A stretch of DNA of 64,000 nucleotides from Thraustochytrium sp. TN22 (lineage: Eukaryota; Sar; Bigyra; Thraustochytrida; Thraustochytriidae): the NCBI GenBank assembly GCA_013306675.1, contig JABLUY010000003.1, positions 132,896 to 196,895 on the forward strand, given 5' to 3'. Each line of letters begins with the position of its first letter. Within the stretch, counting starts at the first letter, position 1. Below are positions 43,521 to 61,765 of the stretch, piece after piece. The notes under the pieces were generated by a model. The model searched no databases, had not been told where the DNA came from, and saw only the letters and a list, made by a program, of their open reading frames with translations. A program made the translations under genes and the position numbers.

Positions 43521-44380
43521 TTACTTGCTGCTGCTGCTGTTGTTGTTATTGGTGGAGGTGACGGTGGAGGCATCTTGCGCAGGGTGGATGCTGTCGGTCA
43601 GGTCTACCGGAGCTGTAGGGCCCGGAGCTGCAGAGCGCGGAGGGGGCGTGGAAGCGGACACGGCCGTGGATACAGAGCGCTGCTGCTGCGGCGTGGACGG
43701 AGGCACCGGCGCGGCAGCTGCAGCCGTCGGCGCTGTCCCAGCAGCGGGACGCTGCCGAGGCGGCGCAGAGCCCGGAACGGCGCCGACACCGAGACCGGTG
43801 TTCATTGAGGGTCGTGGCGCCGAGGAAGGCACAACGCGCTGGGCGCCGGCCCTCACAGGCGTGGTGAACCCTGCGGCGGCACTGGGTGCCGGAGCAGAAC
43901 TCCTGACGGGCGTGGTGGCAGTCGTCACGGGCGCGCGCGACGCAGGCGTGGTGGCCGTAGGCGGCACGCGGGCCGTGGTGCTGACCCTGCCAGCGCCGCC
44001 CGTCGGGGTGGTGCTGGCGCGGCTCACGCCGCGCGGTGCCGGCATCATCTTGACCGTCTTGCGGTTGCCAAGTCTGTCGATGCTCGTGATGGTGCGCGCG
44101 CCGCTGGCCGCCGTTGTGGTGATGCGCCGCTCGCCGTTGGGGCAAATCATCGTGGTGGTACGAGTGCCGCTCGCAGTCACCGTAGTGATGTAGCGCGTGC
44201 CGTCATTCGCCTGCGAAGTGAAGGTGCGCGCGCCATTGTTGTTGATGATACTGGAGGCCGGGCGCGGCTGCTGCGACGGCTGCGGCGGGCCACGTGACCC
44301 ACCGGACGGCACACCACTGGTCGTGGTTGAAGATGCTGCGCGCGCGGCGCCACTAGCGGGAACGGGCGACGATAGCGTGC

Positions 44381-44414
<34 letters not shown>

Positions 44415-47400
44415 CTGCTGCAGCTGCTGCTGAGGCTGCTGCTGAGGCTGCTGCGATTGCTGCGGCTGAGACCTGGACAAAATGCCGGTAGCAGCGTGCA
44501 GCGGCGCGTTCATCTTGCCCGTGCGCGGGTTCACCGTGGCCCCTGGAGCGCCAGCGGCCGTGGTGGCCGAGCGGTTCGCTGCCGTCGTGGTGGTGGAAAG
44601 AGCCACGCCGACAGGCTTCCCGGCCTTGTTCATCGAACTCTGCGGGTGGAAAGGCTGTCCATTGGACGTGGCAGCGACTGGCCTCTGCGTGGCTGTCGTC
44701 GTCGCCGTGTACCGCTGCTGCTGCTGCTGCTGGGCCGCAGCCATTGGCTGGCGCACGCTCGAGAACGTCGGCGCCGTCGCGCGCACCTGCTGGGCCTGCG
44801 TCTGCTGTTGCATGGGGACGCCCGCACGTGCCTGCACGCCATTGTTGCCCGCCGGCACGCCCAGACGCGCGTTTGGGGTTTGGCCCGGCACCGCCGTGCG
44901 CATCTGCTGCTGTTGCTGCTGCGACTGCGGCCTGGCAGGCGCCAGACGGCTCTGCTGCTGGGGCTGCAGATGCTGGTGCTGAGGAGCGCGCTGCTGCTGC
45001 TGCTGCTGCTGCTGGTGCATGGCCACGGGCGCGCGCTGCTGGGGTTGCTGGTGCAGGTGCTGCTGCGGCTGGCCCGGACGATGCATCATCGAGTGGGGCT
45101 GCTGCTGGCCCACGCCAGCGCGCACCGGCTGGCCTGGCACCGACGGGTGGCGGGCCGAGAGCACAGGCTGGCCCGACATGGTGCGCACGGCGCCCGGATG
45201 GCGCGGCGCCAAGGCTGCGCTGGGAAGCACGCCACCCGAACCGGGCGGCGGCGGCGGCGGCGCACTCGCCGCCGTGGCGACGGGCGAGCCACTCTCGGAG
45301 CCGCCCTGGTCCGCCAGCACCTGGTTCTGCACATGGCGCGGCACGAAGCGGCCCTTGACGCGCGGCCGAGAGTCGGCCAGCGCCTTGCGGCAGCCATACT
45401 TGACGCGCTTGAGCCAGACACGACGCTTGCGCTTCTCGAGGAACTTCTCGATGCGGCGGCGACGCTGCTCCATGGTGAGCGTGCCGATGGTCGCGTTGCG
45501 GTTCGCCATGCGAGCCGACAGCGAGAAGGTGGGCGGCGGGCACACCGGACGCTGCGGCGCCGGGACCGGCGCGGGTGCGGCGACCTTGGGCGGCGCCGAC
45601 GCCGGCGCCACCTTGAGCACCGGGGCGGCTGACGCCGCCGGCTTGGTCGCATCGTCGCGCGCCGCGCTCACGGGCGTCGTCGGAGGCGGCGGAACCGTGG
45701 CGGCGGCCGCGGCCGCGGCCGCCGAGGCCGCAGCGATGGGCGAAGCGGCGGCCGCCGGTGCGTTGCTCGCCAACCCCTTGGCCTTGTTGGCCTTGGACTT
45801 GGCGGGCGCCGAGGCGGGCACCTTGACCTTGCTCGCCTTGTTGGCCTTGGGCGTCATCTTGCTGGCGCGCGCGGCCGCCACCGCCGAGTTGAGCGAGCCC
45901 TTGCTGGTGCCGGGCTTGGAGCGCAGCGAGTGGGCGCTGCCGCCGAGGTGGTGCACCAGGTCGCCCGCATCCGAGTCCGTGTCCGAGTCCGAGTCGTCCG
46001 GGTGCGCGTCCGAGGCGACGCGCAGGTAGACAAACATCTGCTTCTGGCGGCTCGGGATGCTGGCGCGCGTGGGCGACGTCTTATACAGAGGCGGGAGGCG
46101 CTGCGTCATGGTCGGGATGGACCGCGGGCGCTTGCCGCGCGAGAAGGCAGCTGCCGACATGCGCGACTTGTAAATGGCCGTCTCGCGCTCGGCCAGTGCG
46201 CCGCTGTGCTGAGGGATGCGCAGCGTGATGCGGCGATGTCCGGCGCCCGGGGGCGAGGACGACGAGGACGCGCCCGCCTGGCGGCCCTCGGTGATGCTCT
46301 CGAGGTCATCCTCCTCGAGCAGGTCCCAATCGTCCTCGGCGCGCTCCGAGCACGAGGTGAGCTCCAGCATCGAGGTGGGCAGCATGGAGAACTCCAGGCT
46401 ATAACCGCGCGGGCGCGTCCGCGACGAGGGTGATGGAGGCGCGACCTCAAAGTCCGTCTCGTGCACCCAGTCGAAAGACTTCCCGCGCGAGCGGAACGAG
46501 GCTAGCGAGAAGATGCTGCTGGACCGATCGCGCGGCATCGAGGCGGCCACCTCTGCCACCGTGTCGTCGGGGAAGTCCAGCAGCGCCGGTGGTGGCCTGG
46601 GCATGGTAAAGCGGACCGACGCAAGCGTCGGCGTGCCCAGGCTTAGCAGGCTGCCGCCGGCCGAGTCAAGGCTCAGAAGCGAGCTTGAGCTGCTGCTCGA
46701 CCCGCTGCGTGCCTTGGTCATGAGAAACGATGAGTCCGCGCCGCCAAGGCTACTACTGCTGGCAGCGCCTGCGTCTAGTAGTGGCGAGATGCCGCTGCCG
46801 CTGCCGCCGCCGCCGCTGCTGCTGCTGCTGCTAGCCGCCGCCATGCCGCCGTCCTTCTCCTCGGCCTCCTCCCTGCCGTCTTGTGGGCGAGACTTGATGG
46901 GGCTATTTTTTCTCAGCAGGTCAGAAGCGCGCGATCGCCGCTTCTCCATGGGCAGCGGCATAGCGAATGAGAAGGTCGACGAGATGCTCGACAATGACGA
47001 GAGCGAGGCGGCGCGCTGCCGCGCCGCCGCGCGCGCCGCACGCGACGACACCGCGTTAATACCGCCTGGTACGCCGCTCGTACTGCTGCTGCTACTGCTG
47101 CTGCTACTAGCCCCTGCCTCCTTGACGAGATTGTTGTTGCTCGTTGCCGACACTGTTGATGATGACGACTTGTTCGTGGATGCTGAGGCGCCGCTGGACG
47201 TCGAAGAGGCCGGAGCCAGCTTCATCTCACCGTTCTCCTCAAGCGTGACGTCCACGTCCAGCATGGCGTCGTCCTCCACGAGGCTCAGCATGCCCTGCTG
47301 GAGAAGCAGCTCGAACGTATCGGCGGCCGACAGGCGTGGTGAGGCCGACGGCGCCGAATCATCGTCGTCGCCATCGAGATCCAGGGCCTTCTTCATGCTA

Positions 47401-47441
47401 TACGCGTCTTTGAATTCACCGACCTCCAGCAGACTCGACAT
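43521..47441 (-). CDS. CCT-domain protein with Gln-rich regions and 11-residue repeats
   Basis: 1306 residues from the first in-frame ATG (47441). Residues about 650-700 form a CCT domain: RRRRIEKFLEKRKRRVWLKR, VKYGCRKALADSRPRVKGRF. CCT domains occur in CONSTANS-like and TOC1-like regulators and bind NF-Y subunits or DNA, so a nuclear regulatory role is inferred. No B-box or receiver domain is visible. The rest is Ser-, Ala- and Gln-rich, with long poly-Gln runs (for example around 44380-44415 and 44990-45015). Residues 1070-1135 (44037-44234) hold six 11-residue repeats of the form GxRxITTxxxS, described as a finding. Basic clusters near the CCT (KRKRRVWLKR) would serve nuclear import. Confidence 0.85.
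44037..44234 (-). repeat. Six 11-residue protein repeats in the CCT protein
   Basis: Units begin GAR, GTR, GTR, GER, GAR and GNR at exactly 11-residue spacing. The consensus is G-x-R-x-I-T-[ST]-x-x-x-[SND]. DNA identity between units is low, so the pattern looks kept at the protein level. Confidence 0.85.
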
Positions 47442-48780
47442 CGTCAGGGATGCACGCACAGCACAAGTGCCTTGCCCGCCTGCCTGCCTGCCTGCCTGCC
47501 GGCTATAAAGGTGCTAGCTAGCCGCCAAACGGAGCCGCCCACGGCTGCGTCTGGACTTGCGCTGTGTGTTTTTTTTTTAGGTCGCGCCCGGCCGCAACGA
47601 AGCTGTCTACAAGCAATGCGCGCCGTCGTCAGTCACGCTCCCGCGTCGCCAGTCTCCTCCTCCGCCGCCGCGTCCCCTCCTCGCGCCGGCGCGCGCCGGC
47701 GCCCTGCCGCTCGCCAGCGCCAGTGGCGCCTTCGCTCGCCTTGCCGTTGTGCGTGGCGTGGCGCGGCGCGCTCCCGCCGCCTCATCCTCCGTCGCCCGGC
47801 TCACTCACTGTCCGCTCGCGAGCGCGTCCGCCGCCGCTCGCGCCAGCGCCGCGCGCCGCGCGCGAGGCCCGCGGCCCGCGCGGCGCGAGGCTGCGCGGGA
47901 TGGCCGGAGGCGATGGGATGGGATGCGATGAGATGGGATGAGGAGCAAGGCAGCAAGCTTCGCTTCTTGAGACTTGAATAGAATACGGCGCCGCGCGGCC
48001 GCGAGGCGAGGCGAGGCGAGGCGAGGCGAGGCGGGGCGCGCGGGAGAGCGCGCGAGGGAGGGCAGGGCGCCGCGCTGCGCGGCAGAGCGAGGCAGAGCGA
48101 GGAGGGAGAGCGCGAGCACGGCGCGAGCGCGGCGCGCGGGAAGGGAGGAAGGCAGAGCGCGGCGCTGCGGCGCGGCCTAGCGTTTCCCGTAGCGCGGGAC
48201 TAGCGAAATCCGCCGAATGGGTGGCCGTGGGGGAGGCGCAGGATATCCTCGCCCGCCGCGGCGAGGGCGCACGCAGCTCCTTCCTGGGCGCCTGGCCTGT
48301 GCTTCCTGGCCCAGCCTGGCGCGCCTCCGGCCCCGTACGGCGTCCAAGTCCGGCCGTACTTGCGCTCCGTGCGGTGCAGTGCCCGGTGCTGCGCCGCTGC
48401 GTTGCGTTGCGCGTTGCGATGCGCTGCGATGCGCTGTCGCCGCGCCGCGCCGCGCCGCGCCGCCGCGTGGTTAAGCGCTAGCAGGAGGAGCCCGAATCAC
48501 TGGTCCTGGGACGCGCGCCAACAACCGCCGTCGGAGGAGGGCGGTCTCGTGGTCGCGAGTCGCCAGTGCGTGCGACCGCCGCTCGGATTGCAGAGAAGTT
48601 TCTTGTGGCTGTCTGGCTGTGTGTTTTTTCTTGCGCACCTCGCTCCTGCCCACCGCCTGCCAGTGGACGGCCGCTGCGGCCAGCCTGAGGCCGGGCCAGC
48701 CGTTGCGTTGGCGTGCGTCGTGCCGTGACCGGTCTTTCATTGGTCTTGCTGCTCCTCTTGTCAGAGTCAGAATGAATGAA
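47442..48780. other. Intergenic region upstream of the CCT gene
   Basis: About 1.3 kb with a TGCC array (47479-47501), a GCTAGCTAGC cluster (47513-47523), a short poly-T tract (47571-47578) and a GAGGC pentanucleotide array (48001-48033). No coding gene was recognised. Confidence 0.55.
48001..48033. repeat. GAGGC pentanucleotide array
   Basis: Six tandem units of the same GAGGC motif found at 32323-32364. Confidence 0.9.
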
Positions 48781-49718
48781 TCAGACGAGGGCGACCGAGC
48801 CCTCACGGATGAAGTTGCGCACCAGTCTGTAGCGGATGGCGAGCAGGTCCCCGGCCTGCATCTGGACGGGGGCATTGTAGCCCGTCGGGTCTACCTCCAC
48901 CTCGCCAACGTCCCTGCGCACTCGGCACAGCACAAACTTGTCTAGGTCCGGCGCTGGAACTGTGCGTTTTTGTTGTTGTTTTTTTGTTCACATTTTGCGT
49001 GGTCAGTATTCGCAACTCTGGTGGTGCCAGCCTTGGCGCAAGCGCGTCGCTGCGCCCGCGCATCTCACGTACTCATGTTCACCTGATTCGTCTGGTCGTC
49101 CAGCTTGCGGTGCACCGCGGGCATCTTGGAAAGCGCCAGCTTGCGCAGGTGAGACGCCTGCAGGCCCGCAAACCGCTGCATGAAGCGGACCTCGGCCGCG
49201 CTCAGATTCTCCGCCGCATCCTCGTTCTGGAGCAAGTAAAATGCCTGCTGCTCGATCTTGCGCAGCCGCGTGCGCAGGTACTCTACAATCACATAGTTGA
49301 CGCGGTCCAGCTCCATCTGGTACACCATGGCGCGCATCATCTTGCGCACGTCCTTCTCCAGCTCCTCCACGAGGTCCTGCCGTGTCTGCACGGCCTTCTT
49401 GAGCTTGTCCACCAGCAGCTCCTCATACGGCAGCAGCTCCGGAGCCCCCTGTACGCGTGCACGCACCGTCCGTCACCGTCAGCTCGTGTTGTTGTTGTGT
49501 TGTTGCTGCTGTTGCTCACCAGGCGCTCCTTCACTCACCTTCTCATTACGCAGCGCCTGCCGCAGCAGGTCCACATCCACGACGCGCGCCCGCGACCCGA
49601 GCGTCGCATCAAAGTCCGCATACTCCTCCGCGAACTCGCGTTCCACACGGGCCTCGTCCACCTCCAGCTGCTGCGCGCCCGCCGCCAGGTCCTCCTCCTC
49701 GTACGCCGCCTGCGCCAT
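48781..49718 (-). CDS. SLD5: GINS complex subunit SLD5 (three exons)
   Basis: Exons on the minus strand are 49539-49718, 49073-49448 and 48781-48959, giving 244 residues. SLD5 is one of four GINS subunits that join MCM2-7 and CDC45 in the replicative helicase. Exon 1 (ATG at 49718, first in frame) ends LLRQALRNEK at a GTGAGT donor. Exon 2 begins GAPELLPYEELL and carries the A-domain helices (MELDRVNYVIVEYLRTRLRK). It ends at a GTACGT donor. Exon 3 gives IPAPDLDKFVLCRVRRDVGE, then AGDLLAIRYRLVRNFI, the C-terminal B-domain. Intron 1 is 90 bases with branch GCTGACG; intron 2 is 113 bases. All phases match and the family landmarks appear in order, so the model is strong although no single frame covers it. 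Confidence 0.93.
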
Positions 49719-50363
49719 GGCGCTCCCTCCCTTTCGCTTGCTCCCGTCGCCGTTTGCCGCGGCTCCCAGCTTCAGCGCCGCGCCGCGCCGCGCCTCGCGC
49801 CTCGCAGGCTCGCGTGCTCGCTCGCAGGCCCAGGTCCGCGTGCGCCGCCGCCTGCCGCCGCCTGCCGCCGCCCGCCGCCGCCGCGCAGTGGTTGGCCGCC
49901 TGCCGCGCCTCGAGCGCGATTTGATCGCAAGCCTAACGACCGCGCCGCGGCCGGCCCGGACTCGCGCGCTGCCCCGTCTCGGCCTGCTCGCCGCGCCGCG
50001 CCGGGGGGCACCGGGCGCGGCGCGCTGTTTTTCCTCTCGTGTCCGAGTCCCAGCGGTGGTTGGGTTCACGTTCTTGCTTTTTTCGAATCACTGGCACGGC
50101 ACGGCACGTTCGAATCGCCCGGCAATTTGAAAACGCAGCCCGCCCGCCCGCCCGCGCGCGCGCGCGCCGAGCGCGGCCTCGTGCAGCCTCGTGCAGCGGC
50201 AGCGCGACGCCCAGGCTGCGCGGACTGCGAGCGAGTGCTCGGCTGCGCCTTGTGCGGACGCTCTTGGCCCGCTCAGGCTCTGGGCCAGGGGTTCTGGGAC
50301 TGGCCTCCGACTGCGAAGGTTAGGCTGGTGGTTTGTTTGGTGCAGGCACGGCGCAGCGTGCAC
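49719..50363. promoter_or_regulatory. Divergent promoter region of SLD5 and the CXC gene
   Basis: 645 bases between the two ATGs. It contains three TTYGAA boxes (50082-50087, 50109-50114, 50126-50131). A possible 5' UTR acceptor (GGTGCAG at 50339-50345) lies just before the CXC start. Confidence 0.5.
50082..50131. promoter_or_regulatory. Cluster of three TTYGAA (CHR-like) boxes
   Basis: TTCGAA at 50082-50087, TTCGAA at 50109-50114 and TTTGAA at 50126-50131. TTYGAA is the cell-cycle homology region element bound by the LIN54 CXC domain in animals. The adjacent gene encodes a CXC protein of that type. Confidence 0.4.
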
Positions 50364-51932
50364 ATGGCGCTGTGGAGGCGCTTGCAGCGCGAGGGCGGCG
50401 ACGTGGACAAGGCGCTGCTCAAGCAGCGCCAGGCGAACCAGGACCTCCTCATGAAGGCGCTGCATGCACCTGGGCTCGGAGGCCTCGCGGAGGACCGCTA
50501 CGTCGAGGCGATGCGTCTGGAGCTTGTCATCTTTCTCCAAGCCGACGACGAGGCCGAGTACAACATCCTCTGCAGGCTCGTCGCGGATCGCCTCGTCACC
50601 GCGCACGGGCTGGTCGACGCCGCCGCGACCGCCGACCCCCTCGCCACTATGCAGCTGCCCTTGGACGTCGCGCTCAGCGTGCCCGGCTCCCCGTCCATGG
50701 ACATCTTCGGTCCCATGCCGGGCGACTCAGACTACGACGCCGACGCCAACGACGACCAAGCCCTCGACCTCGACATCGGCATCGACCTTTCCAGCCCAAG
50801 TCCCGTGGACGATCAGGAGGATGCCTCCACATCAGCCAGCGCCGACACGGACACCATGCACGCGGCCATCGCCGCCAAGCGCTCCTGGCTTCGCAGCGCA
50901 GACAACGACGAGGCCAGCGACCGTGGCGACCTGGACGGGACCGACGACAGGGAGACCGCCGTCGACCACCAAGTTGCTGACGGTCAGCAGCGCCAAGCTA
51001 CCTCGGCCGATCGTCAGCAGGCTGGCACTGAGCACGACAGGACTACTGCATCTAGCGACATCGACCACCAGGCTGCTGCACCGACAATGGTCAGCGACAT
51101 CGGCCACCCTGTGCAAGCCGCCGTCGAGCAAGGTGCTGCCGTCGCCGAGCACATGATTGCACCGGCGATGACCTCGACCTCCAACGGGCCCGGTGTGACG
51201 CAGGAGTCGCTTCGCCGCAGTGTGCGGCTGCGCTCTCTCGCAGAGCAGTCACTTCAACCAACGCCATCTGGGCTATTGGCGCCAGAGCCTGCTGCCGCTC
51301 CGCCGCTCAACGCACCGGCGGCATCGACCGCTGAGTCGGACTCGATCGCGTCGCCCCTCAGCAACGCGAGTGATGATGACTTTGTCGCAGACGATGAGGA
51401 CGAAAGGGACGACGACGATGATGAAGCGTTCGACCCCGACGCCGACATGGACGTAAAGGAGGAGGAAGTCCACGACGAGGTGTCGGACGACGACAAAGAC
51501 GACGAAGACTTTAGCCCGGCGTCGGCCAAGCCCAGCACCGGCGTGCGCAGGAAGCGGAGGAGCAGCGAATGTCCGGGCGCAGGGGCGCCCCGGAAGCGGA
51601 AGCCCGCGCCGCTCAAGGACTTTTGCTGCTGCAAGCGGTCCAAGTGCCTCAAGCTGTACTGCATTTGCTTTGCGAAGAGCGTCATGTGCGACGCCCAACA
51701 GTGCTCGTGTGTCGGGTGTCTGAACAACACCAAGCACAGCAAGGCGCGCGACGAGATGATTGCCCGCCACTTGGAGCGGGATCCAGACACCTTTGTGCCG
51801 AAACGAGAGCGAGCCAGCGGTAACTGCAAGTGCAAGCGGTCGCGCTGCCTCAAGCTCTACTGTGAGTGCTTTGCGGCCAAGCGCAAGTGCAGCCTCAGGT
51901 GCTCCTGCAGGTCCTGTCTGAACAAGACCTGA
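50364..51932 (+). CDS. Tesmin/TSO1/LIN54-type CXC (CRC) domain protein
   Basis: 522 residues from an ATG at 50364. The first 90 residues are helical (ALWRRLQREGGDVDKALLKQ). The middle is acidic and Ser/Asp-rich. The C-terminus, about residues 415-522, has two CXC repeats: CCCKRSKCLKLYCICFAK with its downstream Cys set, and CKCKRSRCLKLYCECFAAK with RCSCRSC. They are joined by a linker with the expected ERDPDTFVPK signature. The tyrosine in each LKLYC, which contacts DNA in LIN54, is kept. Such proteins bind TTYGAA elements and act in DREAM/MuvB-type cell-cycle regulation in animals and plants. The protein ends right after the second CXC, lacking the helical tail that LIN54 uses for complex binding. 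Confidence 0.92.
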   Translation: MALWRRLQREGGDVDKALLKQRQANQDLLMKALHAPGLGGLAEDRYVEAMRLELVIFLQADDEAEYNILCRLVADRLVTAHGLVDAAATADPLATMQLPLDVALSVPGSPSMDIFGPMPGDSDYDADANDDQALDLDIGIDLSSPSPVDDQEDASTSASADTDTMHAAIAAKRSWLRSADNDEASDRGDLDGTDDRETAVDHQVADGQQRQATSADRQQAGTEHDRTTASSDIDHQAAAPTMVSDIGHPVQAAVEQGAAVAEHMIAPAMTSTSNGPGVTQESLRRSVRLRSLAEQSLQPTPSGLLAPEPAAAPPLNAPAASTAESDSIASPLSNASDDDFVADDEDERDDDDDEAFDPDADMDVKEEEVHDEVSDDDKDDEDFSPASAKPSTGVRRKRRSSECPGAGAPRKRKPAPLKDFCCCKRSKCLKLYCICFAKSVMCDAQQCSCVGCLNNTKHSKARDEMIARHLERDPDTFVPKRERASGNCKCKRSRCLKLYCECFAAKRKCSLRCSCRSCLNKT

Positions 51933-52199: not shown

Positions 52200-55100
52200 T
52201 CAGGTGACGAGGCTGTCTGATGAGGGGTGATTCACCATCGTTCCGCGCGAGTCGGCGGCATCAGCCTCGTAAAAGACCGGAGAGTCCGGAGGCAAGGTCA
52301 GAACGCCCCAGCAGTGATCGCAGACCGTCACCGAGGCGTTCTCGCCGAACTTGGCGATCGGATACTTGTGGTTGGAGCATTTGGAACAGCTGATGCGGCC
52401 ACAGTGCTTGCAGTAGTGTTGGTCGCGAAAGAAGGCGAAGCCAGAGGTACAGACCGAGCACTTGTCCTTGTTGCGCTGGAACTGCTTCGCAAGCGCCTCG
52501 TTCGGTGGGTGTTTGATGTGGCGCAACAGCTGCACGGCGAAGCCCTGCGGGACGATGTCAATGGGCGTCTCCTTGTGCTGGTTCTGCACAAAGAGAGGCG
52601 CGCCCATGCGCACGAGGCGGTAGGCGATCTTGCGGCTGTTCAAGAGGCAGGCAATGTGCAGAGCCGTGTTGCCGAGCTTGTCCTGCTCGTGAAGGCGCAC
52701 ATTGTCGCGCTCGAAGCGACGCAGCGCCTTGGTGGTAGCGTGGCTGTTGGAGCAGAGAATGATGAGCGGCGTTTGGCCCGCGCGATTCTTGAGGTTCGGG
52801 TCGAAGTCGTTCTCTAGCAGGACACTGATCGCACGGGCCATCTCGATTGGCGCCTCGCTCGAGCACACGAGATGCAAGGCCGTGTTGCCGTTCTGGTCCG
52901 GCAAGTCGCGCGGGTCCTCCGAAACAGCACCGCCCGCCTTATCTGGCTGTTGCTGCTGCTGTTGTTGTTGTTGTTGTTGTTGCTGCTGCTCGGAATCAGC
53001 GCTGCCTGGGCTCACACTGGCCGGAGACTTGTGTTGCATGGAGCCAAAACCCAAGAGATTCTCCAGCATCTTCACATTGCAGATGCGGGCCGCGTGGTGC
53101 AGCGCAGTCTGGCCCTGGTCATCGCCGCGAGAGAGGCTGGCGCCATGCTTAAGCAGCTCGTGCATGCACATGATGGCGCCCACGCGGACTGCCGCGTGCA
53201 GCGGCGTCTGGCCGTGTTGGTTGGCGCCCTCGCGGTCTGCGCCGCCTTGCGCGGCGCGATCGCCCCGCGCGATAGCGCCATGGCGGATCAGCGCCTGCGT
53301 GACGGGCAGTGCCTTATCGCCGAGGAGCACGGCCTCCATGAGCGGGGAGTTGCCATGGCTGTTCTTGGCGTGCACGTCGGCACCATGCTCCAGAAGCAGC
53401 TGAACAATGCGTTGTGAGGCGTCCGGCCCGGTCCGAAAGGCACGGATCGCGGCGTGCAGCGCTGTACGCTCCTTCTGGCTGCAGCCCTCGTTCGGGTCCG
53501 CACCCTCTGCAAGCAGATCCTCCACCACGGCCGCGTGGCCGTCGCGTGCCGCGAGCGTCAGCGGCGGGACGCCGAGCGCGAGCGCCGTCTGGCGCACCGC
53601 GTCAAGGTCCACGGTCGGCACGGCCTCCCCGTCCTCGTCAAAGACCAGCTCGCCTTCGTTGTTGATGTAGCGCACGCCAACCAGGCCCAGCGGGATCTCG
53701 CCGCTCGCATTTGCCTGGTCGCCTACCAGAAGCGGCGAGCTCGAGGAGCGGAAGAGCGCCGCGGGCGAGTGCTCGCCAGGGCGACGCTGCGCCGCGCCGC
53801 GGCCCTCTCCGCCCTGCAGCGTCACAAGCGCTCCGTCCTCGCCAGGCTTGAATGGAGTGCGGGCCGAGGCCGAGGCCTCCTTGGTCTCCACGCGTAGCTC
53901 CTCGTGGTCGAATCCACGCAAGGACTGCGCCTTGCGGTCCGCGAAGCTCCCGCTGCCGCCATGCCTGTTCTTGTCCATGAGGAGGTTCGTGCGGAAGACG
54001 TCCACGGTGTTGTCGGCGCCCGCCTGCCGTTGCGAGGCGCGCCGCGCCAGCTTGTACGAGTGCGCCGACGTGGGCGCGCGCTGCTTGCGGTGAAAGCTGT
54101 CGCCACCACTAGGCGAGGCAACATCATCGTCGCCCAGGACCGCCAGCAGCGAGTCGTCCGCGTTGTCCTCCTCGTCCGAGGGCAGCTGCTCGATCTGCGG
54201 TGACCGCAGCATGACGCCGCGGTGCAGGGCCTCCTCGATGATGGCGCCGCCGCTGTGGCGCCGCCGATGGCGCGCCCGGCCCGGGGTGGGCGTGCGCACC
54301 GGGGCGGCCGCCTGCTCGCCGCGCTTCAAGAAGCTTGGGATCATGCTCGCCGAGGGCCAGCCCATGCGCGGCGAGGCAGACTCGGTGCTGGTGGCCGGGC
54401 TCGAGGGCGCCGCGCCTTGTGCCGCGAGGCGCGCCCAGGTCGCGAAGACGCCGTGCATTCGGTCGCGGCGCTGGCGGCGCGTGCTCAAGTCCACGAGCTG
54501 GCGCAGGCGGCGCGTCTGCACGAGGCTGGCGTGCCACGCCACAAAGTGGCGGCGCAGCTTGTTGGCCGCAAACACCTGGCCAAGGCGCTCGAAGAGCAGC
54601 TTCTCCTCGAGCCGCAGCACGGCCCAGCGGTTCCAGGATCGAAAGACGCGCAGCATGATGGAGCGCTCGTTGCGCGTCGCCAGCAGACCGTCCAGGCGGC
54701 CCGCGTGCACGCTCCGCAGCGCCTCGGCGTGCCAGGCCGCAAAGCAGGACTCCAGCACGCGGCGCTCGCGGCGCTGCGCGGCGCGGCGCACGAGAACTTC
54801 CTCGCGGCGCGCCTCGGCACCGACGCTGGCCAGCTGCGCGAAAGCGCGGCGCAGCCGGCGGCGCTCCAGGGCGCGACGCACCATGGCCACGCGCTCGCGC
54901 AGCGCACGGCTCTCGCGTGCCGCAGCAGACCACACGCTGATTACATGCTGCGCTGTGCGCCGCGAGCGCCGATCCACGAGCAAGCGTGCCTGCAACATGC
55001 TGGCGGCCTTGGCCTTGGCCTTGGTGAGCTCCGTGAGCTGGTGCTCGAGAAGCGCGACCTTGGCGTTGGATGATTCCCGGTAGTCCTCGAGCGCCGTCGC

Positions 55101-58100
55101 CTTGAGCTCGTCGTCCTGGCGCAGCTCCTCTGCGGCGCGCTCGGCACGCGCCAGCGCCTCGCGCAGGCCGTCTGCCTCCTGATGTGCAGTGCGCAGCTCG
55201 CTTTCCAGGTCGATGACCGCGGCGGACCGCGTCGCATCGCGGTTCGCCTCGCGCTCGCGCTCCAGCTCCGCAATGCGCGCCTCCAGCTCCTCGCGCGCCT
55301 CGACCGCCTCGTCCAGTTCCGCCTGCATCTTGGCACGGCCGTCCTTGGCGGCGTTCAGCGCCAGCTCCAGCTCGCTCTGCTTGATCTCCGCCTGGTTCTT
55401 CAGGCTCGTTTGCTGCGCGAGGAAGGACTTGACCTCGTCCACCTCCGCCTGCTTGCTCTCCAGGGATTCCACCAGCGCCGTCAGCTGTGACTCCAGCTCC
55501 AGTTCCAGCGCATGCGCCGCCGCCTGGCCGGTCGCGCCTGGCGACGCAGGGCTGCCCGCTTCCTCCTCCTGCTCCGCCGGTCGGGCCGCGCCCTCCAGCA
55601 GCGCGGCGCGCTTCGCCTCCACCGCGAGCCGCTTTTCGCGCAGCTCCTCCTCGAGCCGCTTCGCGTCCGCAGCCTCCTTCTCCGCGTCCTGCTGCTGCAG
55701 CGGCTGCCGCGCGGGCACAGGCGAGGCCGCCGACACCGTCGCCTGGTCCAGCTGCTGCAGCTCGTCACCAAACACCTCGGCGTACCAGTCGTCGTCGACC
55801 GCCACGGCTGCCGTACTGGCGGCTTCTGCCTCCGGCCGCGGCTTCTCTGGGCTCGGGCTGCTTGTGCCTGCTGTTTCCGCCATCGCCGCAGTTGGGAGCG
55901 CCTCGCGCATCTGGGCAACCGCAGCGCGCACCTTTTTCAGGTGGAACCACAGCCTGACCGTGACCGAGGCGGCGGCCAGGACCGCGACCCCGCGGCGAGC
56001 ATCCTCCGGCGAGGGCGAGGGCAAGGCCCTTGGTGGTGGCGTTGCTGACAGCTGCTGCTGATCCTCGCTGCTGGCCGCCGCAATTGGCGCCGCGGCCAGC
56101 TGGCTGCGCAGCTCCTTGAGCTGCGCGCGAAGCGCGTCACGCTCCTCCATGACCTTGCCAAGGTCCCGAGCGCCGCGCTTCTTGGTGCGAACAGCGTCGC
56201 GCGCCTGGCGGCAGCGCGTGCAGCACTGGATGGCCACGGCTGCCTTGCGCTGGAGCATAAAGTCACGGCGGAGCTTGGCGCCGCGGGCCCAGCTCTGCAG
56301 ACGGAGCTGGGCCCGGTCGCGCCGCAGCGCGCGCGCCTCGAGACGACCCTTGCGGCCGCGCTCGGCGCTCTGGATGCGGATGGCCGCGCCACGGATCTGC
56401 ACGTAGGCGCTTCGGAAGAAGACCATGCGCACCCAGGCCTGCACCGCGAGGCTGGCCTTCTCGCAGCGCAGGCGATGCGCGGCGCGACGCGCGAGCATGG
56501 CCCGCGCCGCCGCCTGAAGGCGCACCGTGGCGGCCCGTTGCCGCAGGTAGCGAGCGCGGCTCGCACGCGCGCGCAGCGCGGCGCCCACGAGCGCCGCGGC
56601 GCGCCTCTGCCAACGCGACCACCAGCGCTCCAAGAGGTCGTGGCCGTGCTTGCGCATAAAGACCTTGGTCTTGCCCACCTGCGTGAGCGCGTCCAGGCGG
56701 TCCTCGCCGAGGTCTCCCCGCGCCTCAGCGTGCGCATGCAGGAGGGCGACGGCGTCCTTGGCGAGCTGGCGTGCCGCGTCGCGCTCCAGCGAAGCGAGCC
56801 CGGGGAGCGCCGCCAGCAGCTTGGCACCGCGCGCCACGAGGTCCTTGTCCGCGGCGGCGCCGCCGCCAAAGAGCGTGCGGGTCGCGGCGGGGCCGGCCAG
56901 ACGGCCGTAGCGCTCCAAAAAGGTGCGGTGCGGCATGCGGATCGGGAAGCCAGCGCGCGCCACGCGCACGGCCTCGAGCACGCCGCCGCAGCGCAGCTGG
57001 CCCACCACGCGGCCGCGGTGAATGAGCTTGGCGCGCGCCGCGTCGTTGGGCTTGATGCAGCGAATGTAGTGCGGCGCCGTGGCCTCGACGGTCTCGATGA
57101 GCGCGTTGAGCTGACGCTTGAACTCGGCACTGACGGAAGCCAGCGAGAGCGCCGACCGCCGCTGCGATCCGCTGTTCTGCCGCGCCGGCATCTGCTTGCC
57201 AGCGCTGCCGGCAGCCCCGCCGCGCTTCTTGGAGGCGCTGCCGGGGCCGCCCGTCGCCGAGGCGGCCTCGTCGCGCAAAAAGCGCTCCTTGACGAAGCCG
57301 AAGCCGGCCGACTGCATGAGGTCCACGACTTCCTGCCGCAGCGCGTCGCGGTTCTTGTCGCAAAAACCAGCCGAGTCGTACGTAACGGCGCCGGCGTAGT
57401 GTTGCACGACGAACTCGCCGCGCACCCGCTGCGCCTTGGACGCCTCGAAGCGGTCGCGCGTCCCGCAGGCCTCGTACAGCTTGCGTGCGAAGCCCTGGTC
57501 GTTACCCTTGGGCAGGCGGCACTCGTCGTCAAGCATGGCCAGAATGCCCATGCCGGCCTCGCCGGCCCCCGCGCCGTCGATGAGCTCGACGGTCGCGGCG
57601 TTGGACGGGAAGTCGATGAAGCTCCAGTTGATCTTCTCCTTGGCGTAGATGGTCTGCTCGTGCTTGAAGACGAAGTCATTGAACTGCTGCTGCAGGCGCT
57701 CATTCGCGTAGTTGATGCAGAGCTGCTCGAAGGAGTTGTGGCGGAAGATCTCAAAGCCGAAGATGTCCAGCACGCCGATGAAGCGACGCACCTTGGCGCG
57801 GTGCCGAATGCACTCGTTAATGCGGCACACGAGCCAGTCGAAGGTGCGGCTGTACATGCTCTTGGCGAGGGCGTCGCGCGTGTCGGCAGCGTCGCCAGGC
57901 TTGAGCGGCACCTCAAAGGTCTCGCCGCCGGCGTTCACCTTGCGCGTGCAGAGCGCCTTGACGATGCCGGCCTCGGGCAGGTCCAGCAGCGCCGCCGCGG
58001 CGGTGAGCGCGGCCGCCGACGCCGCATCGTCCGTGTTCACCTCGGAGCCTGGCGCGTCCTGGTCCATGCCGCCCGCAGCGTCGACAAAGGCAAGGTTGCC

Positions 58101-59426
58101 CAGATGCAAGACGACGGCCACGACCTTGAGCACGGCGTCGCGCTCAGCGTCGTCAAGGCCCATGATAGCCATGGACCGCTTGGTGACTGCGAGCTGGTCA
58201 GCATCCGAGACGCCGTCGCGGCGGTCCGAGCAGCCGCCGGCGCTGAGAAACTCAAAATCCTCCGGCGCCTGGTCCTCGCCCAGGTGCCAGGCGCTCTTCT
58301 CCTCGGGCGATCCGCCAAAGAGCATCTGGTAGAAGACATGATAGCCGCGCTCGCCCTCGCCCTGCTGCGTGATGCGAACCTTCTCCAGCAGGTAGGTGGC
58401 GATGGAAGCGCCCACCAAGAAGCCCTCACCGTCGAACTGGATCTGGATGAACTTGCCGAAGCGCGAGCTGTTATCGTTGCGGATCGTGCGAGCGTTGCCA
58501 AAGGCCTCCAGAATTGGGTTGCTCTCCAGCACCTGCTGCTCGATGGAGTAGTCTTGTGGCGCCGTCGAGGCCTTGTTGGTGGCGGCGTCCGGGTCGTCCT
58601 TGCCGTCGTCCTTGCCGCCGTCCAGGTACTCGGACACGTGCAGCACCTCGTGAACGGCTTGGCCGTCCGCCCGCGGACGACGCGCCACCGTAGCCAGGTA
58701 CTGCATGACGATCTTGGTGGACTCCGTCTTGCCGGCGCCGCTCTCGCCGCTGATGAGGATGGACTGGTCCTGGTCGCCGCCCTCGCGGCCGGACTTGTCC
58801 ACCAGGCAGGCGTACGCGGCGGCCGCCACCGCGTACACGTGCGGCCGCGCCCCGCTGCCACCGGCGTCGTCCGCATCGCCGCCGCCGGTCGCCACCGTCG
58901 AGCCTAGCGCGCCGCGGTGGTAGGATTCCAGCGTGTCGCTGCTGTACAGGGGCAGCCGCTCGAACGGGTTGAGCGCCAGCAGGATGGGGCCGCACCACGT
59001 GTAGATGGTCGACGTCCAGAACCGCTCGCAGAGCGCCTGCAAGATGGCCGGCTCGTGCAGGTGCACGAGCTGCACGAGGTCGGCCGGCGGCTCGCTCCAC
59101 GCGTTCCGCTCCACCACGTCCTCGTGCGCGACGCGCACGGTGTCGCCGTCGCCGTCGCCGGGCGAGGCGGCCTCATCGTCCTCGCTCTCATCCTCGCTCT
59201 CGTCGCCCCTCGCCGCGCTCGGCCGCTTCCTGTTGAGGTCCGCCCACGACTCGAGCACGAGCGAGAGTTCCTTGGCGTCCAGGTCACCGGCGTCGTCGCC
59301 GACCACGCGCGCTGGCACCCAGCCGACCTCTTCGTCTTCGGGGTCCGTCTGCTGCTGCTGCTGCTGCTGCTTGTGCCCGCCGCCCACGCCCTCCGCGCCT
59401 GCGCGCACCCACACGCGCCTGCTCAT
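52200..59426 (-). CDS. Myosin heavy chain with IQ, coiled coil, Sfi1-like, ankyrin and FYVE domains
   Basis: 2408 residues in one frame from an ATG at 59426. The motor has the P-loop GESGAGKTESTK near residue 222, switch I NDNSSRFGKF, switch II DIFGFEIF and the actin-binding LNALIETVEATAPHYIRCIK. Five or six IQ-type segments follow (about 925-1080). A coiled coil spans about 1260-1475. Residues about 1475-1670 hold six helical repeats with an aromatic or Leu every 33 residues (W1499, L1532, W1565, W1598, W1631, W1664), resembling Sfi1 centrin-binding repeats. Ankyrin repeats (about 1940-2290) are interrupted by a poly-Gln run. A FYVE finger near 2320-2375 (CSVC, RDQHYCKHCGRISCSKC, CDHCW) should bind PI3P on endosomes. 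Myosins with ankyrin and FYVE tails are typical of stramenopiles. It would move membranes on actin. Confidence 0.93.
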   Translation of the reverse strand: MSRRVWVRAGAEGVGGGHKQQQQQQQTDPEDEEVGWVPARVVGDDAGDLDAKELSLVLESWADLNRKRPSAARGDESEDESEDDEAASPGDGDGDTVRVAHEDVVERNAWSEPPADLVQLVHLHEPAILQALCERFWTSTIYTWCGPILLALNPFERLPLYSSDTLESYHRGALGSTVATGGGDADDAGGSGARPHVYAVAAAAYACLVDKSGREGGDQDQSILISGESGAGKTESTKIVMQYLATVARRPRADGQAVHEVLHVSEYLDGGKDDGKDDPDAATNKASTAPQDYSIEQQVLESNPILEAFGNARTIRNDNSSRFGKFIQIQFDGEGFLVGASIATYLLEKVRITQQGEGERGYHVFYQMLFGGSPEEKSAWHLGEDQAPEDFEFLSAGGCSDRRDGVSDADQLAVTKRSMAIMGLDDAERDAVLKVVAVVLHLGNLAFVDAAGGMDQDAPGSEVNTDDAASAAALTAAAALLDLPEAGIVKALCTRKVNAGGETFEVPLKPGDAADTRDALAKSMYSRTFDWLVCRINECIRHRAKVRRFIGVLDIFGFEIFRHNSFEQLCINYANERLQQQFNDFVFKHEQTIYAKEKINWSFIDFPSNAATVELIDGAGAGEAGMGILAMLDDECRLPKGNDQGFARKLYEACGTRDRFEASKAQRVRGEFVVQHYAGAVTYDSAGFCDKNRDALRQEVVDLMQSAGFGFVKERFLRDEAASATGGPGSASKKRGGAAGSAGKQMPARQNSGSQRRSALSLASVSAEFKRQLNALIETVEATAPHYIRCIKPNDAARAKLIHRGRVVGQLRCGGVLEAVRVARAGFPIRMPHRTFLERYGRLAGPAATRTLFGGGAAADKDLVARGAKLLAALPGLASLERDAARQLAKDAVALLHAHAEARGDLGEDRLDALTQVGKTKVFMRKHGHDLLERWWSRWQRRAAALVGAALRARASRARYLRQRAATVRLQAAARAMLARRAAHRLRCEKASLAVQAWVRMVFFRSAYVQIRGAAIRIQSAERGRKGRLEARALRRDRAQLRLQSWARGAKLRRDFMLQRKAAVAIQCCTRCRQARDAVRTKKRGARDLGKVMEERDALRAQLKELRSQLAAAPIAAASSEDQQQLSATPPPRALPSPSPEDARRGVAVLAAASVTVRLWFHLKKVRAAVAQMREALPTAAMAETAGTSSPSPEKPRPEAEAASTAAVAVDDDWYAEVFGDELQQLDQATVSAASPVPARQPLQQQDAEKEAADAKRLEEELREKRLAVEAKRAALLEGAARPAEQEEEAGSPASPGATGQAAAHALELELESQLTALVESLESKQAEVDEVKSFLAQQTSLKNQAEIKQSELELALNAAKDGRAKMQAELDEAVEAREELEARIAELEREREANRDATRSAAVIDLESELRTAHQEADGLREALARAERAAEELRQDDELKATALEDYRESSNAKVALLEHQLTELTKAKAKAASMLQARLLVDRRSRRTAQHVISVWSAAARESRALRERVAMVRRALERRRLRRAFAQLASVGAEARREEVLVRRAAQRRERRVLESCFAAWHAEALRSVHAGRLDGLLATRNERSIMLRVFRSWNRWAVLRLEEKLLFERLGQVFAANKLRRHFVAWHASLVQTRRLRQLVDLSTRRQRRDRMHGVFATWARLAAQGAAPSSPATSTESASPRMGWPSASMIPSFLKRGEQAAAPVRTPTPGRARHRRRHSGGAIIEEALHRGVMLRSPQIEQLPSDEEDNADDSLLAVLGDDDVASPSGGDSFHRKQRAPTSAHSYKLARRASQRQAGADNTVDVFRTNLLMDKNRHGGSGSFADRKAQSLRGFDHEELRVETKEASASARTPFKPGEDGALVTLQGGEGRGAAQRRPGEHSPAALFRSSSSPLLVGDQANASGEIPLGLVGVRYINNEGELVFDEDGEAVPTVDLDAVRQTALALGVPPLTLAARDGHAAVVEDLLAEGADPNEGCSQKERTALHAAIRAFRTGPDASQRIVQLLLEHGADVHAKNSHGNSPLMEAVLLGDKALPVTQALIRHGAIARGDRAAQGGADREGANQHGQTPLHAAVRVGAIMCMHELLKHGASLSRGDDQGQTALHHAARICNVKMLENLLGFGSMQHKSPASVSPGSADSEQQQQQQQQQQQQQQPDKAGGAVSEDPRDLPDQNGNTALHLVCSSEAPIEMARAISVLLENDFDPNLKNRAGQTPLIILCSNSHATTKALRRFERDNVRLHEQDKLGNTALHIACLLNSRKIAYRLVRMGAPLFVQNQHKETPIDIVPQGFAVQLLRHIKHPPNEALAKQFQRNKDKCSVCTSGFAFFRDQHYCKHCGRISCSKCSNHKYPIAKFGENASVTVCDHCWGVLTLPPDSPVFYEADAADSRGTMVNHPSSDSLVT
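54415..55005 (-). repeat. Six 33-residue Sfi1-like repeats in the myosin tail
   Basis: Cores are VISVW, AFAQL, CFAAW, VFRSW, HFVAW and VFATW. The last position recurs at exactly 33 residues five times in a row, in an Arg-rich helical background. Confidence 0.75.
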
Positions 59427-59923
59427 CCTCGCGCGCGCGTGCTCCGGCCGCTGCGCCTCGCGCCGCCGCGATCCCTTTTCGAAATCGATCGCCGCTCGAT
59501 CCCCGCCGCGCTGCGCCGCGCCGCGCAGCGCCAGCCGCGCAGCGCCAGCCGCGCAGCGCCGCCGCCGCCCGCGCTCGCCCGCGCGCCCGCCGCAGCAGGC
59601 TTGCTCGTCTGCCGCGCGCCGGGCGCGGCCAGCTCAGCTCTGCTGCTCAGCTCAGCTGACTTTTCGAAAAAACCTAGCCGCTGTTCATTCACTCACTCAC
59701 GCACGCACGCCACGCACGCGCACAAGCAAGCAAGCCTCTGCGGTGCTGGCCAGTGCACAGGCGGCGGCAGGAAAACTTTCTTCTCGGGTCCCGAGTCCTT
59801 TTCTCCTCTCCTCAGGCTCCAAGCTCAGGCTCCTGCGCTGTCTCCTCGCCGTTCAGGCCGCCGCTTCGCCGCGGTCACGTCCACCGGAACGGAAGCCTGT
59901 ACGGCGACGCTGCACGTGCGCGC

Positions 59924-59959
<36 letters not shown>

Positions 59960-60467
59960 CGGACCGCCCGCCGGGCGCCCGCGGCGGCGCGGCGGCGGAG
60001 CTGCGGCCTCGCGGGCTCGCATTCGCCGCCGCGCGCCGCCACGCCGGAGGCTTCTCGCCGCCTCGGGCAGGCGGCCAACTCGCCGCCTGCCTGCCTGCCT
60101 GCCCGCCCGCCCGCGTGGTCGCGGCAGCGGAGCGCGCAGAACTCGCGGTCAGAACTCGCAAACTTTCCTGTCGGAAAAGGAGAAAAATGACGTCCAAAAT
60201 GCATAAAGTACGGTCGCCAGGTCAGCGCGAAAGGGCCTAACGGGATAGGCCGCGCCGAGGCGGAGGCACGCCGCGGCGAGGATCGCGCGGGCAGCGCGGA
60301 TGATCGATCGAATCAAATCCTCGCAAGCAAATCCTCGCCGGAGCGGCGGGCGAGGCTCGCGCGAGGCCGGCGAGGCGCAGGGCGGCGCGGCGCGGCGCGG
60401 AGGCGCAGGCGCGGGCTCCGGCGCGGCCCAGCGGGGGCGCAGGCGAGGGCGCGGGTCGGCGGGCGGC
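59427..60467. promoter_or_regulatory. Divergent region between myosin and the PH-ankyrin gene
   Basis: About 1 kb. Two TTTTCGAA elements lie at 59476-59483 and 59661-59668 (50 and 235 bases before the myosin ATG), a CT array at 59925-59956, and a TGCC/GCCC array at 60083-60113. No gene was recognised inside. Confidence 0.45.
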
Positions 60468-61765
60468 ATGGCCGAGGCCGCCATGCAGCGCGGCGGCGGA
60501 GGAGGAGGCAGCGGCGGCGGCGGGCCCGTGGCCACGGGCGTGCGCGAGCCCTGGGAGAAGGCGTGCACGTTTGAGGGCCCGCTGCTGAAGAAGAGCGACT
60601 GGCTGAAGAACTGGAACTCGAGGTACTTTCGCATCAGGGGCAGGACGCTGTGCTATTATGAGAACCAGATGAGCAGGATCGCGCGCGGCGAGATTCCGCT
60701 CATTGGCGGCCAGGTGGCTCCCGTGACCGTGGCGGACCCGGCCAGGAAGTTTGTGCTGCAGGTGCGCACCGCCAAGGGCGAGGATTACCTGTTTGGCGCG
60801 CTCTCCGAGGAGGATCGCAGGGATTGGATTGCGCAGATCCAGCTCGCCATCACCCGCGGCCCCGCCGTGCAGGCGCGGCGCCGCAACGGCAACGGCAACG
60901 GAGGCGAAGTCGGAGTCGCAGGCGGAGTCGCAGGCGGAGGCGGCCCGGGCGCGGCATCGCCGACATCGCCACCCACGGCTGGGGCAGCAACGCCCAGTCC
61001 GGGCGGCATCGACACGGAAGCCGCCACGGACGATGGCGTCGTGGAGGTGGACGACGAAGACGAGAATGAGAGTGGCGTAAATGACCTCGTGCGCGGCACG
61101 GAGGCGCTCGACATGGACGGCCCGATGGACGAGCCGCTCATGGGCGGCCAGCGCTTCCCGCGCGACTTCCAGCCGCCACCGCCGCCGCCCGACGCTGAGG
61201 ACCCACTCTCGTACCTCATGTCCGTGCCGGATGCACGCTCCTCGCAGTCCTCGAAGCGGACCACCCCGCGCGGCAGACGTTCCGCCGGCGCCGAGAGCGC
61301 CTTTGCGCAGAGTGAGACCGTGGCCAAGGCGCAGCCCGCGCCAAGGCACGCGTCCAGCGCACCGCCTCGGGCGAGGCCATGCAGCGCTTGGGTGGCGAGG
61401 CTGGCACTGGCTCTGGCGCCGGCACCGGCCTCGGAGCCGGTACGCCAGCCCCCCTGGCAGCCCCGGGCGCGAGTCCCGCCGCCCTGGACGGCGTGGCACT
61501 GCGCGACGCTGTCAAGTCTGGCGACCTGAGCCTTGTGGAGAGGATTTTGGCCGTCAACCCGGCGCTTGCGCAGTCCAAGAACACGCTCAACAACTCTGTC
61601 CTTCACGTCGCGGCCATGTTCAAGCACGAAGAGATCTGTATGCGCCTCGTGGAGGCGGGCGCCGACCCCACCCTCGAGGACGCCGGGGGCGAGACCCCGC
61701 TGTCGCTCGCGCCTGTGTCCGTGGCGAACCGCATGCGTGCGCGTTTTGAGGCCAGCCGCTCATGA
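60468..61765 (+). CDS. PH-domain and ankyrin protein, reading frame changes midway
   Basis: The first frame starts at ATG 60468. After a Gly-rich leader it encodes a clear PH domain (about residues 33-130: GPLLKKSDWLKNWNSRYFRI, ending DRRDWIAQIQLAI), then acidic and Pro-rich sequence to about 61320. Continuing the same frame to a stop at 61529 gives low-complexity sequence. From about 61316 the next frame is open and encodes KARVQRTASGEAMQRLGG and then two ankyrin repeats (LRDAVKSGDLSLVERILAVN, SVLHVAAMFKHEEICMRLVE), ending at 61765. The shift equals one missing base. A normal intron is not visible in the overlap. PH and ankyrin modules suggest a membrane adaptor. Either one gene with a base error or indel, or two overlapping parts. 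Confidence 0.7.

Follow-up and report, generated by a model that had tools for sequence, protein, structure and literature searches.

Sfi1 repeats are described as having a 33-residue periodicity with the motif Ax7LLx3F/Lx2WK/R (PMC5112337), and the minimal Sfi1 motif has been given as [FLW]xxW[KR] (PMC10180636). The centrin-binding triad within the repeat consists of a Trp at position 1, a hydrophobic residue at position 4, and a less conserved position 8, and it can run in either direction (PMC8622359). The repeats of Toxoplasma SFI1 carry the reversed triad: position 1 is Trp in 32 of 32 repeats, and position 4 is Phe in 12 of them (PMC9406199). In the portions of the literature consulted, Sfi1-type repeats are found in proteins of the centrosome, spindle pole body, centriolar plaque, and basal body. 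Among the papers listed by a literature search combining Sfi1 and myosin, no title or abstract opening deals with a myosin with Sfi1 repeats, and narrower searches likewise gave none, a result that leaves absence from print unproven.

Among the myosins, class XXXIV of Phytophthora and Hyaloperonospora combines a motor, an IQ motif, a coiled coil, ankyrin repeats, and a C-terminal FYVE domain (PMC2375034). Labyrinthulomycetes, oomycetes, and ochrophytes are reported to have further myosin classes of their own, and dozens of myosins are unclassified orphans (PMC5583752). A precedent for a myosin and centrin acting together comes from Toxoplasma, where MyoJ and centrin 2 co-localize and are both needed for basal constriction (PMC5477499). 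MyoJ differs from the protein described here in that the available part of that report mentions no Sfi1-like array, and its link to centrin comes from localization and depletion (PMC5477499).

The window considered here is a stretch of 64,000 nucleotides from Thraustochytrium sp. TN22 (contig JABLUY010000003.1), and it is GC-rich (61–75%). Its minus strand contains a frame of 2477 codons without interruption (52200-59633), in which an ATG at 59426 gives a myosin of 2408 residues; residue r of this protein is encoded by 59427-3r to 59429-3r. The gene and its recognizable domains are as follows.

52200-59426, minus strand: myosin gene, one open frame with its ATG at 59426, 2408 amino acids plus stop
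56652-59081, minus strand: myosin motor, about residues 116-925, Pfam Myosin_head 689 bits
56172-56624, minus strand: IQ-type neck, residues 935-1085, two strict IQ matches and about six by eye
55002-55514, minus strand: coiled-coil-like stretch, about residues 1305-1475, the coiled coil judged by eye
52527-53567, minus strand: ankyrin repeats, about residues 1954-2300, Pfam Ank families in up to 7 stretches
52302-52475, minus strand: FYVE-type zinc finger, residues 2318-2375, Pfam FYVE 46 bits against a cut-off of 27.8

The motor, ankyrin repeats, and FYVE finger are all above their Pfam cut-offs, and because they share the same frame the frame is taken to be coding. A motif check finds the P-loop (GESGAGKT), switch I (NDNSSRFG), and switch II (DIFGFE) all intact, and the best match of the motor in the PDB has an E-value of 4e-148. 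The strict IQ pattern occurs in the neck at residues 1018 and 1043, the one Pfam IQ match in the protein (9.9 bits) falls under the cut-off of 20.3, and the neck has a net charge of +36. The coiled-coil-like stretch is acidic (net charge −17) and proline-free, and it leads directly into an array of six 33-residue units that is the main subject of this report. The prolines bordering this region are at 1296 and 1674, with none in residues 1297-1673. A Pro/Ser-rich linker follows the sixth unit, and the ankyrin repeats further on are interrupted by a poly-Gln stretch. The neighbouring frames, across 48813-51932 (plus strand), 43521-47513 (minus strand), and 60249-61529 (plus strand), contain a tesmin/TSO1 CXC domain, a CCT motif, and a PH domain.

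The domain order of the TN22 myosin, with its coiled coil judged by eye, is identical to the motor-IQ-coiled coil-ankyrin-FYVE order of class XXXIV (PMC2375034). The class XXXIV description gives one IQ motif, five ankyrin repeats, and a coiled coil that is short (PMC2375034), whereas the TN22 protein has several IQ-type motifs and the Sfi1-like array, and its coiled-coil-like stretch extends over about 170 residues. No such array is mentioned in the available part of the class XXXIV description, which served for this comparison in place of the sequences (PMC2375034), and an array there may have gone unannotated. A preliminary description of this DNA held that no described myosin has this combination of parts. 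That statement stands for the array, but the motor, IQ, coiled coil, ankyrin, and FYVE arrangement is that of class XXXIV (PMC2375034); the domain frame is already known, and the array is its only new part.

The array begins where the coiled-coil-like stretch ends and comprises the following units.

54900-54998, minus strand: unit 1, residues 1477-1509, core VISVW, partial triad A/I/W
54801-54899, minus strand: unit 2, residues 1510-1542, core AFAQL, Leu in place of Trp
54702-54800, minus strand: unit 3, residues 1543-1575, core CFAAW, full triad L/F/W, Ala at -16
54603-54701, minus strand: unit 4, residues 1576-1608, core VFRSW, triad M/F/W
54504-54602, minus strand: unit 5, residues 1609-1641, core HFVAW, full triad L/F/W
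54405-54503, minus strand: unit 6, residues 1642-1674, core VFATW, triad M/F/W

The units are anchored on W1499, L1532, W1565, W1598, W1631, and W1664, and all five steps are exactly 33 residues, just as the preliminary description had reported. The four cores it quoted, those of units 3-6, are likewise correct; units 1 and 2 read VISVW and AFAQL. The span it gave, 54415-55005, corresponds to about residues 1475-1671, and the six full 33-mers occupy residues 1477-1674 (54405-54998).

The periodicity has been probed in several ways. Of the six Trp residues in 1477-1674, five fall in one phase of 33, and five of the seven Phe residues likewise fall in a single phase, an outcome reached by random placement in 0 of 200,000 trials for each residue. 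The self-similarity of the array at a shift of 33 (mean BLOSUM) is matched by none of 20,000 shuffles, and none of 3000 shuffles reaches the same value at any shift from 20 to 50. Within the range of shifts from 5 to 99, the highest self-similarity occurs at 66, 99, and 33, with the next shift, 37, well below. Furthermore, the likeness between units does not depend on the aromatic anchors, as it is equalled by 0 of 5000 shuffles when the F and W columns are taken out. When the units are compared in pairs, 4-10 of the 33 residues are identical, and at the DNA level 32-52% of the bases, values that rule out a recent tandem duplication as the origin of the array. With so few residues in common, the period has outlasted the sequence.

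The array is rich in Ala (16%) and Arg (22%), contains 7% Glu, and has a net charge of +29. A stable single alpha-helix has dense Glu together with Lys/Arg. Judged by composition, the array is not of this type, with 7% Glu against 22% Arg.

Read in the reversed direction, the triad of the myosin array has Trp at position 1 in five of six units, Ile or Phe at position 4 in all six, and Leu or Met at position 8 in five of six, and it is complete in units 3-6. The array shares with the Sfi1/SFR repeats of yeast, human, Toxoplasma, and Tetrahymena a 33-residue period, a reversed 8-4-1 triad, a basic character, a mostly helical prediction, and a genome that encodes centrins. In contrast to Sfi1, the residue right after the Trp position is never Lys or Arg (0/6; S, A, H, N, H, and A stand there), Ala is found 16 residues before it in one unit of six, and unit 2 has no Trp. 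The array also differs in having only six units, in lying inside a myosin, and in giving no Pfam Sfi1 match. Indeed, neither the whole myosin nor the segment matches Pfam Sfi1 (PF08457) at E-values up to 10, although this test has little power because it also misses the Sfi1-like protein of the same genome. A phmmer search of the PDB with the segment gave nothing but one chance match (E 0.94). The viral collection gave no result with either the array or the C-terminus of the myosin as query, nor did the prokaryote collection with the C-terminus.

The Sfi1-like protein just mentioned provides a yardstick. In frames of at least 150 amino acids from 56 loci (269,729 amino acids, overlaps included, from a genome of 38 Mb in 453 contigs), chains of at least four [FLIVMWY]xxW motifs at a spacing of 24-42 occur only in the myosin gene and on contig C415. 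The stretch on C415 (C415:16272-19745, loci L057 and L056) is a frame of 1157 residues in which [FLY]xxW units are numerous, apparently the genome's Sfi1-type protein. No Pfam family matches its last 981 residues. The genome-wide Pfam Sfi1 search gave a sub-threshold match (E 0.53) on the minus strand of C415, which looks spurious; the array in the C415 protein lies in the same stretch on the opposite strand, where the motif scan came upon it by luck. Of the 23 pattern matches in the C415 protein, 15 were kept as profile units: matches 81, 652, 980, 992, and 995 were never used, and the overlapping matches 467, 990, and 1075 were dropped after the first profile. The same 15 units underlie the final profile, the HMMER unit model, the combined profile, and the count of K/R after Trp, which stands at 8 of 15. 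The C415 protein thus resembles the myosin array in its many [FLY]xxW units, but it differs in the irregular spacing of its 15 picked anchors (29-190), in its K/R residues, and in having no motor.

The final C415 profile is ungapped, anchored on Trp, and contains nothing from the myosin. Among the 2376 positions scored in the myosin, it places units 1-6 at ranks 4, 3, 1, 2, 5, and 8. The six-unit register sum in the myosin is 66.3, compared with −12.5 for the best stretch outside the myosin gene, in a null of 459 segments and 117,597 registers (L036, L056, and L057 excluded) that includes two copies of the myosin gene and whose frames are mostly not real genes. When five-unit sums are compared over the periods that fit (20-51), a period of 33 scores 60.6 and the next best scores 3.0. 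An earlier version of the profile, with 18 units and lighter pseudocounts, ranked the myosin units 23, 18, 2, 1, 3, and 9; it was overfitted, as C415 units left out of it scored −1.4 bits on average, and units and weights were changed once afterwards. The z of 11.7 obtained with that version is inflated because its shuffles brought Pro and Ser of the linker into the helix, and the register test with the final profile and the Trp/Phe placement test are fairer.

Cross-matches by HMMER are weak. The model of C415 units reaches at most 10.7 bits per unit on the myosin, with a negative score for the whole protein, and the reverse comparison reaches at most 9.0 bits. No protein search of the genome connects the myosin array with the C415 protein, and common descent of the two is therefore not shown. 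When nine C415 units were combined with myosin units 3-6 in one profile, it found no Sfi1 chain in the PDB, with one chance match at E 0.67. Searches of the genome's own proteins for further copies gave weak candidates at C420:219595 (E 0.012), C435:4707 (E 0.21), and C447:38278 (E 0.62). The first of these (C420:219595-219792) lies in a 1222-residue frame, matches the C415 repeat protein, and is possibly a further Sfi1-like protein.

The proposal of an Sfi1-type array, made in the preliminary description, therefore holds in part: the period, the triad, the register match to the C415 protein, and the centrins encoded in the genome speak for it, while the missing K/R after Trp and the missing Pfam match speak against it. 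As a description of anatomy, the Sfi1-like reading of the sequence is well supported. The array is called Sfi1-like here and is not filed as a member of the Sfi1 family, because the Trp-anchored profile was revised once, most of the null frames are non-genes, and the HMMER cross-matches are weak.

A search for the array in the other myosins of the genome has been made in part. The genome has 66 matches to the myosin motor, corresponding to about 46 genes once matches are merged by position. In thirty myosin loci, one of them the present gene, the sequence covered ends about 500 residues beyond the motor match, before the place that the array occupies here; the survey also took in seven further stretches, as well as six tail stretches that may or may not be in frame with their motors. 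Within this partial survey, a profile of both unit sets (L036, L056, L057, L031, and L037 excluded from the null) found no array in the other 1374 segments of the loci. No segment has more than three scattered positions that score above 6 bits, compared with 23.7–37.1 bits for the myosin units, which are themselves members of the profile. The nearest motor among the loci compared is that of L001 (46% identical), a protein that has a coiled coil as well as IQ motifs; the part of it that was read contains no array. About 46 myosin genes in 38 Mb is a large set, and several of the tails, such as those of L003, L008, and L010, appear by eye to be helical and of no assigned type.

The preliminary description assumed helical repeats, and this has been probed with an AlphaFold2 model of residues 1455-1680 made from the single sequence without an alignment. 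The model contains one helix from 1489 to 1574 (units 1-3), with block pLDDT values of 74-93 up to about residue 1564 and 59 at the helix end. Past about 1565 the model is poor, with shorter helices of low confidence and a gap at 1575-1584, and the mean pLDDT is 65.9. All six cores, from position 4 to position 1, are helical in the model, confidently so only to about 1564. One continuous helix through the repeats is thus borne out in part: the confident part of the model, the helical cores, and the lack of proline up to residue 1673 are compatible with it, and the low-confidence break at 1575-1584 with an interrupted helix.

Candidate partners for such an array are encoded in the genome, which has at least 148 matches to EF-hand pairs; seven short EF-hand stretches were read. 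L058 is a clear centrin (caltractin, 4e-80; centrin-2, 9e-76), whose best calmodulin-named chains score 2e-56 (a fusion) and 6e-46. L059 is a second centrin-type protein (centrin-2, 4e-44; Cdc31, 2e-42). By eye, L064 looks like a third centrin, split by an intron, and L061 looks like a calmodulin. The centrin encoded by L058 has a net charge of −15, as against +29 for the array.

Taken together, these features suggest that the stretch is probably, with considerable reservation, an Sfi1-type array in which each 33-residue unit is a predicted site for one centrin-type EF-hand light chain. The rivals to this reading differ in what they make of the same helix. The array could be a second light-chain lever for calmodulin or another EF-hand protein and not for centrin, its resemblance to Sfi1 being that of any EF-hand target helix. 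This is considered unlikely. The putative calmodulin of L061 and the large number of EF-hand pairs would supply the partners, the array (+29) and the IQ neck (+36) are both basic, and no Lys or Arg follows the Trp; however, the 33-residue step and the reversed 8-4-1 triad are those of Sfi1, the array is in register with the genome's own Sfi1-like protein, and no IQ match falls within the segment.

Similarly doubtful is a purely structural helical repeat without a light chain, in which the aromatic residues would pack into a bundle, against another part of the tail, or against the motor in an autoinhibited state. The short, low-confidence helices in the second half of the AlphaFold2 model and the degenerate units 1 and 2 are what such a repeat might show. 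Yet Trp is kept in five of six units and little else is, and together with a charge of +29 this is a better fit to a target helix for acidic partners; moreover, the motif recurs in the C415 protein. A pattern arising by chance or low complexity in an Ala/Arg-rich helix is highly improbable. The content of Ala and Arg and the Leu that replaces one of the six anchors would allow it, but none of the 200,000, 20,000, or 5000 random versions reaches the observed phase or self-similarity, and the shuffle, placement, and profile tests rule it out at these thresholds.

If the stretch is an Sfi1-type array, the following arrangement can be proposed for the myosin. The coiled coil would pair two chains and yield a two-headed actin motor. 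Just behind it, a segment that is predicted to be mostly helical and is strongly basic would present one reversed 8-4-1 triad (L/M-x3-F-x2-W) per unit, so that each chain might carry about four to six centrins, most surely on units 3-6. The light chains would stiffen the tail into a stiff or calcium-sensitive strut that spaces the motor from the cargo end or links the two, and the length or folding of the tail may depend on calcium. Beyond the Pro/Ser-rich linker, the ankyrin repeats and the zinc finger would hold the cargo. It is conceivable, albeit quite improbable, that the tail goes further and contains its own centrin filament segment, in which calcium alters the length or stiffness of the strut and ATP-driven stepping is combined with a calcium-driven contractile or elastic element.

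In the preliminary description, the FYVE finger was expected to link this chain to PI3P membranes. The eight zinc-binding Cys residues are present (2323, 2326, 2339, 2342, 2347, 2350, 2369, and 2372). FYVE domains that bind PI3P carry the signatures WxxD, R(R/K)HHCR, and RVC. A motif check found none of the three anywhere in the myosin protein. Where the solved FYVE domains 9f43 and 1vfy read RRKHHCR and NRKHHCR, the myosin reads RDQHYCK, and it reads TVC in place of their RVC. Binding of PI3P through this finger is doubtful because these signature residues are changed, and its ligand may be different from PI3P.

A 33-residue array of this kind in a myosin, if the Sfi1-type reading is true, would mean that the actin-motor and centrin systems physically meet in one chain. 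It would also offer a simple way to test whether centrin can serve a myosin as a light chain at a site other than the IQ neck. Should the class XXXIV myosins of oomycetes share the array, a whole described class would have an overlooked light-chain array on its cargo side.

A separate observation on the same genome concerns lipid synthesis; together with the GC-rich window and the many motors that read in one frame, it fits a thraustochytrid. A 3044-residue frame at C124:26703-41142 matches the polyunsaturated fatty acid synthase subunit PfaA with 2540 bits, and the frame next to it, divergent and 2083 residues long, matches the PfaA model in part.
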